NCBI GenBank assembly: GCA_025363835.1
Contig: JANYLD010000235.1
Location: 1 to 33,930 of the forward strand
Length of the DNA: 33,930 nt
Direction of reading: 5' to 3'
Source: Armatimonadota bacterium
GTDB lineage: Bacteria > Armatimonadota > Fimbriimonadia > Fimbriimonadales > Fimbriimonadaceae
Under the pieces are notes generated by a model, which was not told the origin of the DNA, did no database searches, and saw nothing but the letters and a program-made list of their open reading frames with translations. The position numbers and the translations under genes were made by a program. Below, piece by piece: positions 28,280-29,768 of the stretch (position 1 is the stretch's first letter; the number at the start of each line of letters is the position of its first letter).

Positions 28280-28399
28280 TTGTGTATCTCCTTTGCGATG
28301 AATTCGATGCAACTGCATCCGATAGAGCTGACTCGCTGCAAAAAACGGTTGTTCGCATCTTTTCCACTAGCGCAGCACACTGTGGAAGGGTGACAATGA

Positions 28400-28600
28400 T
28401 CTCGTCGTGGAGCCCTGCTGTCGTAGCAAGGCTTAAACGGGGGAAGTCCGGTTAGAATCCGGCGCTGTGCCGCAGCGGTGTGGCGATCTCGGATCTAGGA
28501 TCTCGGATCTCGGAAAGAATTATTTCCGCGATCCGCGATCCAAGATCCAAGATCGACCGAGCCCGAATGCCCGATCCACGAGTGTGTTACGTGAGTCGTC
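28400..28600 (+). ncRNA. Cobalamin riboswitch
   Basis: The conserved core is clear: AAACGGGGGAAGTCCGGT at 28435-28452, then GAATCCGGCGCTGTGCCGC and AGCGGTG, matching the GGGAA-GGT-AATCC-CTG-CCGC pattern of the B12-binding aptamer. The B12-box side appears as GACCGAGCCCGAATGCCCG at 28555-28573. Between the two lies an arm made of heptamer repeats. The exact outer limits are approximate. The next plus-strand gene is the pseudopilin at 28746; no corrinoid gene is in the window. Confidence 0.87.
28485..28554 (+). repeat. Paired heptanucleotide arrays forming an arm of the riboswitch
   Basis: Left: GATCTCG, GATCTAG, GATCTCG, GATCTCG (28485-28512). Right: CGCGATC twice, CAAGATC twice (28527-28554). 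The right block is a near reverse complement of the left, giving an about 28-bp imperfect stem with a 14-base loop. Confidence 0.82.
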
Positions 28601-28633
28601 GCCTACGAGCATAGGTACAGCGGATCGAGATCA

Positions 28634-28745: not shown

Positions 28746-29612
28746 TTGAAACTCAGAACTCGGAATTCATCTATAACGCGCACTCCAAATTGGAAATCGC
28801 GTATCACTCATCTCGAATCCCGAATCCCATATCCCCTATCCCGTATCGCAAATCCCGCGTCGCGGGCCTTCACGCTCATCGAACTCCTCGTCGTCGTCGC
28901 CATCCTCGCCATCCTCGCCTCCATCCTCTTCCCCGTCTTTGCGGGCGCCAAGATGGCCGCCAAGAAGACCGCGTCGCTCTCCAACCTGCGCCAGATAGGT
29001 CTCGCCTGGACCATGTACAACGAGGACTACGACGAGACCCTCATGCGCGTGCACATCCCCGATGGGACGAAGGAGTATTTCTGGTGGGGCTCTTGGGACG
29101 GCACGACGGAGAAGCCCGAGGAGGGCCTCCTATACCCCTACACCCGCGGAGCCGGCATCCAGGTCGATCCATCGTTTGACAACAAGCTGCGGACCAATCT
29201 CGGCTTCACCGGCTACGGCTACAACTATTTCTATCTCAGCCCTTCCACGTATTCCCCGCCCGACTACGTGGAAGTCCCGCTCCCTGTCATGGAGGGCCAG
29301 ATCGGCACTCCGACAGAGACCGTATGCTTCGCTACCTGCGCCCGCATCAACAACTGGACCTACGCCACGCCAACTCTGGAGGGCAGCACCTACCTGGATC
29401 CACCGTCAAACGCCTACCCCGGCTTCCACGGTCGCACAAACGGCGTCGGCAACATCCTCTGGTGCGACGGCCACGCCAACGCCCGCCGCCCCGTCATGCG
29501 GTCGGGCACGTTCGGCTTCGGCTTCAACTCAGACGACTTCCGCAAAGAGAACCTCGGCGACATCGACCAGGACGGCAATCTCAGCACGGATGAGCTGTTT
29601 GATTTGAACTGA
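28746..29612 (+). CDS. Prepilin-type pseudopilin with H-X9-DG motif and C-terminal EF-hand
   Basis: A 288-residue protein with a prepilin motif (SRA^FTLIELLVVVAILAILAS) followed by FPVFAGAKMAAKKTASLSNLRQIG, the DUF1559-like layout found in planctomycetes, verrucomicrobia and Armatimonadota. Near residue 230-250 is HGRTNGVGNILWCDGHAN, the H-X9-DG motif. The last residues, DIDQDGNLSTDELFD, form an EF-hand calcium loop. The start is TTG, nine bases after GGAGG. The leader is unusually long (about 45 residues) and carries a seven-residue repeat (SRITHLE, SRIPYPL, SRIANPA) encoded by a heptamer DNA array. It follows a cobalamin riboswitch. Confidence 0.85.
   Translation: MKLRTRNSSITRTPNWKSRITHLESRIPYPLSRIANPASRAFTLIELLVVVAILAILASILFPVFAGAKMAAKKTASLSNLRQIGLAWTMYNEDYDETLMRVHIPDGTKEYFWWGSWDGTTEKPEEGLLYPYTRGAGIQVDPSFDNKLRTNLGFTGYGYNYFYLSPSTYSPPDYVEVPLPVMEGQIGTPTETVCFATCARINNWTYATPTLEGSTYLDPPSNAYPGFHGRTNGVGNILWCDGHANARRPVMRSGTFGFGFNSDDFRKENLGDIDQDGNLSTDELFDLN
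28748..28862 (+). repeat. Heptanucleotide array running into the pseudopilin gene
   Basis: The best-defined part is 28800-28862, nine units such as CGTATCA, CGAATCC, CGAATCC, CATATCC, CCTATCC, CGTATCG, CAAATCC. Weaker units (GAAACTC, AGAACTC, GGAATTC) start at 28748. The array is coding and ends two residues before the prepilin cleavage site. Confidence 0.75.
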
Positions 29613-29624
29613 TGGCTTCGCCGT

Positions 29625-29735
29625 GTAAATCGTTAATCGTAAATTGTAAATCGCCCGGATTCGAAAATCCGTCCAGCGGGTTTCAATAACTCGCATCCCC
29701 CTCCGGCGATTAACGATTTACGATTTACGATTTAC
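29625..29735. repeat. Inverted pair of heptanucleotide arrays between pseudopilin and osmC genes
   Basis: Left 29625-29652: GTAAATC, GTTAATC, GTAAATT, GTAAATC. Right 29708-29735: GATTAAC, GATTTAC three times. The right block is the reverse complement of the left with few differences, so a 28-bp stem can form. The 55-base loop contains CGGATT-CGAA-AATCCG. It may end the pseudopilin transcript. Confidence 0.85.
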
Positions 29736-29768
29736 GCGCGCAGCGCCCATGCAAGTAAGCTTCCCCAA

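Follow-up and report, generated by a model that had tools for sequence, protein, structure and literature searches.

How did a cobalamin riboswitch come to carry arrays of tandem heptamers, and does its function depend on them? This question is raised by a locus in the window, the whole stretch of 33,930 nucleotides analysed here, which comes from contig JANYLD010000235.1 of an Armatimonadota bacterium of the family Fimbriimonadaceae (assembly GCA_025363835.1; genome G000 below). The riboswitch and the gene behind it lie on the forward strand.

The heptamer arrays within the aptamer

The Rfam covariance model RF00174 matches positions 28391-28594 over model positions 1-189 and scores 38.4 bits (cut-off 31.5), which is usual for the riboswitches of the Fimbriimonadaceae; its alignment puts the arrays within the aptamer, 5' of the B12 box. 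As a guard against circularity, a local covariance model, R1, was built from 45 short-armed riboswitches of the family, with the window and the long-armed members excluded. R1 aligns 28405-28627 of the window (89.7 bits, E = 5.4e-21); it accommodates the arrays by a 63-nt insertion located exactly at the peripheral hairpin, and the alignment continues past the insertion through the B12 box and the P13 hairpin. The initial annotation had set the arrays between the conserved core and the B12 box, and both alignments agree. This alignment was the check on which the proposal could have failed; as both models place the arrays inside the aptamer, it favours the initial annotation, and a position outside the aptamer is ruled out. 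The two matches together delimit a riboswitch of aptamer and P13 hairpin at 28391-28627, besides which the Rfam search found no other cobalamin riboswitch in the fragmented assembly of this genome.

The GUGCCGC core and AGCCCGAAUGCC are present in the window and near-invariant among the 45 relatives. So is the P5-type hairpin read from the sequence at 28449-28463 (± 1), CCGG-UUAGAAU-CCGG. The conserved core segment of the P6 region, CUGUGCCGCAGCGGU at 28466-28480 (± 1), contains CUGUGCCGC, which is invariant in the relatives. The enlarged peripheral hairpin follows at 28482-28558, delimited by its pairing and by the insertion relative to R1; it is a P6 extension and P7-like. Directly behind it, at 28559-28570 (± 1), stands the near-invariant B12 box or J6/3, AGCCCGAATGCC, as placed by the Rfam alignment. 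The P13 hairpin CCUACGAGCAUAGG at 28602-28615 (± 2), which carries the kissing partner L13 and belongs to the expression platform, was aligned by R1, and all five pairs of its stem covary in the relatives. The loop sequences of L5 and L13 are conserved in the 45-relative alignment. A pairing between UCGU in the 5' hairpin loop and ACGA in L13, noticed by eye, is invariant where present and missing in many relatives; covariation thus lends it no support, and we do not propose it.

With its core, B12 box, P5 and P13, the window riboswitch resembles the class II type of RF00174 with a variable P6 accessory region (PMC9600662, PMC11260477). The large P8-P12 peripheral extension that is the hallmark of class I was not found: the arm of the relatives measures 4-24 nt and that of the window is a single repeat hairpin. 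Class II is marked by a truncated P6 extension, with GGAA in J3/4 in class IIb. The short or absent arm of the orthologs and GGGGGAAG in the window agree with class II, but the extension of the window riboswitch itself is long, and a UCU motif in J6/3, as in class IIb, was not seen there.

The arm itself consists of a left array at 28485-28512 (GATCTCG, GATCTAG, GATCTCG, GATCTCG), an apical stem-loop at 28513-28526 that separates the arrays, and a right complementary array at 28527-28554 (CGCGATC twice, CAAGATC twice), which reads in an alternative phase as GCGATCC, GCGATCC, AAGATCC, AAGATC. Four GATCTCG-type units followed by four complementary ones, as annotated initially, are indeed present; among the left units there is one GATCTAG, and the right array is made of two kinds of unit, neither of which complements GATCTCG exactly. 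The lag-7 self-identity of the arm is 0.65, and none of 2000 dinucleotide shuffles reached it, even over all lags from 4 to 14. Folded alone, the arm has a free energy of -55.1 kcal/mol (z = -7.0; 0 of 200 shuffles as low), and the hairpin also forms within the surrounding 281 nt. Pairing is strictly in register, and a single 1x1 mismatch falls within each heptamer (C.A, A.A, U.C and U.C).

Comparison with relatives and with the genome's own repeats

The distance from core to B12 box was compared in 66 riboswitches of the family. It is 4-24 nt in 57 and 31-35 nt in four, and the five longest arms measure 54, 79, 81 (the window), 85 and 112 nt. At the position of the window arm most orthologs carry a short arm or none, as the comparison proposed with the initial annotation brought out. 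This short arm is a genuine hairpin with compensatory changes in four of four tested stem pairs, and covariation over the whole riboswitch structure exceeds that of all shuffles in the 45 short-armed relatives. Because the relatives carry 4-24 nt there, the window arm is an enlarged small conserved hairpin, not a substitute for essential structure. Hence the suggestion that the arm was built of, or replaced by, STRR DNA stands in its first half, on the evidence of two models and the orthologs; enlargement takes the place of the second.

A prepilin-like gene lies downstream in 59 of the 66 loci, which makes these riboswitch loci orthologs in a practical sense. In the window the gene is intact and occupies 28746-29612, with a probable TTG start, GGAGG just 5' of it, and Pfam matches to N_methyl and, weakly, to DUF1559. 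A cobalamin riboswitch in front of such a gene perhaps marks an unusual B12 regulon concerned with surface uptake. At another locus (L049) the prepilin-like gene is followed by a DUF4465 gene, and PEP-CTERM proteins follow in several loci. About seven ATCCCGA heptamers stand at 28810-28857, between the probable start and the pseudopilin signature; as they lie within the leader, a slip of one unit would change its reading frame. Genome G006 has a second, armless riboswitch of the family (L043, contig C8) upstream of the gene for the small chain of ribonucleotide reductase, a classical B12-controlled target.

The arm units are common in the window's genome. For the exact arm dimer GATCTCGGATCTCG, 60 copies were counted in G000, against 14 for the reversed-pattern control, and one copy in eight relatives combined; an 18-mer of the right array occurs 14 times in G000. 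Therefore, the arm is made of the dispersed repeat of G000 itself, and it is STRR-type DNA, with a 7-nt unit that stands in tandem at many genomic sites, 60 of them exact arm-unit dimers. Period 7 predominates among the tandem repeats of this genome. Arrays of period 7, 14 or 21 number 19 per 100 kb in G000 (from 253 kb of contigs), 10 in G016, 5 in G095, 3.3 in G006 and 0-1.7 in five control genomes without repeat arms. Further repeats are seen at 29625-29736 of the window, between the prepilin-like and OsmC genes, where GTAAATC and CGATTTA arrays oppose each other as a long hairpin; CGATTTA- and CGTAAAT-type repeats are also present on other contigs.

Repeat-built arms were found in four family riboswitches: with GATCTCG in the window, GATTGAC with AAATCCA in G016 (L044), GATTGCG with AATCCGC in G095 (L058), and 8-nt units in G061 (L067). 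The periodicity is significant at lag 7 in the first three and at lag 8 in the last; when the best of lags 4-14 was taken, no more than 3 of 2000 shuffles equalled the arm in each case. The four belong to four genera and require four changes on the tree of the downstream prepilin protein; heptamer or octamer arms with differing unit sequences have originated at least four times. Within one genus, and with matching flanks, the arm of L067 has 85 nt and that of L045 has 19. The 54-nt arm of G077 (L063) is long without periodicity and was dropped as a repeat-built arm.

A pattern scan for long arms in 84,980 species genomes gave three matches, two of which are the known family members in G077 and G061. 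The third is a cobalamin riboswitch in an unrelated low-GC MAG outside the known family (L193, 4753-4871, reverse strand); its arm measures 94 nt and is periodic at 8 nt, and its P5 hairpin is likewise enlarged. G016 has, in addition to its class II switch with a repeat arm, a class I cobalamin riboswitch (L009, G016:C41:5197-5447) with an 82-nt insertion of weaker 7/14-nt periodicity.

The same genomes have long RNase P RNAs: 428 nt in G000 (C83:591-1018, L172), 403 nt in G016 (C1:1201155-1201557) and 433 nt in G095 (C5:341716-342148), against a family median of 323 nt. The excess consists of repeats and forms one heptamer-rich helix of significant periodicity, assigned here as P12 in the standard numbering; its units in G000 are GGGTATT and GGGTGTT versus CCCAATA and CCCAAAA. 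Three genomes combine a long riboswitch arm with an RNase P RNA of at least 380 nt, two have the arm alone, none the long RNase P RNA alone and 53 neither (Fisher p = 3e-4, with cut-offs set post hoc and genomes that are not fully independent). The association is not strict, since G061 has a long arm and a normal RNase P RNA. The RNase P RNAs of G006 (periodicity not significant) and G035 (weak, lag 7 only, 26 of 2000 shuffles) were not used as repeat-extended cases. No expansion of tmRNA was found in G000, G016 and G095 (355, 351 and 351 nt). The repeats occupy tolerant sites rather than disrupt RNAs at random.

Origin of the arm and its possible effect on the switch

We think it likely that the riboswitch of the window is an unexceptional Fimbriimonadaceae cobalamin riboswitch of the class II type, whose small P6-extension hairpin, unconstrained in sequence, was enlarged by the dispersed STRR heptamers of the genome, and that the arm is neutral or nearly so. 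Repeat DNA would have arisen in, or entered, a hairpin that is tolerant of length and free in sequence, and either slippage or inserted repeat DNA would have lengthened the arm; with both flanks expanded, the stem would have stayed paired. Presumably the switch tolerates the arm because the 7-nt repeats of the two flanks still pair with each other and point away from the junction that binds the ligand, and on the best reading STRR arms are retained in peripheral helices because pairing persists. We expect the RNA to bind cobalamin and to control the prepilin-like gene in the manner of its armless orthologs; the arm would be structurally neutral or close to it. That armless orthologs precede the same gene argues that the arm is dispensable.

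The initial annotation proposed that the arm could lengthen or shorten by slippage, 7 bp at a time, while pairing is kept. Such steps fit the units shared with dispersed arrays, the length differences at genus level and the fold calculation, in which every further unit pair stabilises the arm by about 10-12 kcal/mol and a hairpin persists when only one side changes; slippage as their cause is what we infer. It further suggested that the ligand response may be tuned in this way. In a fuller form of the idea, slippage by 7 nt would alter the length of the arm and thereby folding speed, ligand affinity or switching, so that the B12 response would vary heritably. The preservation of the hairpin upon gain or loss of units and the independent recurrence of such arms are consistent with tuning, as are chimeras of another cobalamin riboswitch, in which exchange of the P6 accessory region altered corrinoid selectivity (PMC9600662), so that an arm of this length may matter. 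However, orthologs upstream of the same gene lack the arm, repeat arms follow the genome-wide density of repeats, and repeats have also entered RNase P RNA, which is not a switch. We regard tuning as unlikely, and give it some weight because of these chimeras (PMC9600662). Its extension to a heritable length dial, by which the cells of a population would differ in unit number and hence in the B12 response of the pseudopilin gene, seems to us decidedly unlikely.

Selection of the arm for another role in the RNA, for instance to shield it from RNase III or expose it to that enzyme, or to bind a protein, with the mismatches at every 7 bp averting a long perfect duplex, is very improbable. The single mismatch in each heptamer and the occurrence of paired arms in riboswitch and RNase P RNA alike would suit it, but unit sequence and period vary by lineage (7 versus 8 nt), and the mismatches sit at positions at which the unit types of the two sides differ, as in arrays that drift independently. 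We give hardly any credence to a decaying riboswitch, no longer needed and hence invaded by repeats: the Rfam score of 38.4 bits is low and repeats stand in the downstream leader as well (28810-28857), but such low scores are the rule in this family, the core, the B12 box and the loop of P13 show no damage, the match to the relatives reaches 89.7 bits, and the gene that follows is intact as well as conserved. Finally, similar heptamer hairpins do exist in nearby intergenic DNA (29625-29736), but the notion that the arrays are a chance similarity or an intergenic element beyond the aptamer is practically negligible, as two covariance models put them between P6 and the B12 box and none of 2000 shuffles reached their periodicity.

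Relation to known repeat-bearing RNAs and significance

The preferred reading, a tolerant hairpin enlarged by the genome's own repeats, has parallels in cyanobacteria. STRR sequences have been described in the RNase P RNA of heterocyst-forming cyanobacteria (Vioque 1997, Nucleic Acids Res 25:3471, cited in PMC2858038). As far as the cited account goes, these are likewise short tandem repeats of a dispersed family within a structured RNA gene, as is P12 of the G000 RNase P RNA; unlike them, the present repeats belong to another phylum, have other units, and are hosted also by a ligand-sensing riboswitch aptamer. The comparison is one of similar behaviour and claims no homology. In Nostoc, the P6b stem-loop of the tRNA-Leu(UAA) group I intron (trnL) carries heptanucleotide repeats that ensure pairing over 50-126 nt, and the repeat types were swapped independently several times (PMC4476775). 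It shares with our arm a peripheral stem-loop of 7-nt pairing repeats, variable length and independent turnover, whereas the host there is a self-splicing intron with two fixed motif classes and here a riboswitch with genome-specific units (PMC4476775). Among riboswitches, the metE cobalamin riboswitch of M. tuberculosis has a uORF within its P9-P10 extension (PMC11260477). There, too, the extra element sits in the variable extension of the aptamer, but it is coding and functional, and that of the window is repeat DNA (PMC11260477).

Repeats in RNase P RNA and in trnL P6b are thus already known from cyanobacteria. The literature searched, outside which most subscription papers lay, contained no RF00174 member with an extension of dispersed tandem repeats and no paper that connects a riboswitch arm with STRRs or tandem repeats; for that literature the initial statement that no riboswitch with such an arm had been described holds, and the repeat-built riboswitch arm has no precedent in it.

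The orthologous riboswitches, mostly in front of the same gene, form a natural series of arm lengths from 4 to 112 nt, and the effect of a peripheral helix on riboswitch function is therefore directly testable. Within one bacterial family, and with internal controls, repeats have repeatedly entered the P6 extension of the riboswitch and P12 of RNase P RNA while tmRNA was spared. Simple repeats can settle in tolerant spots of structured RNAs.
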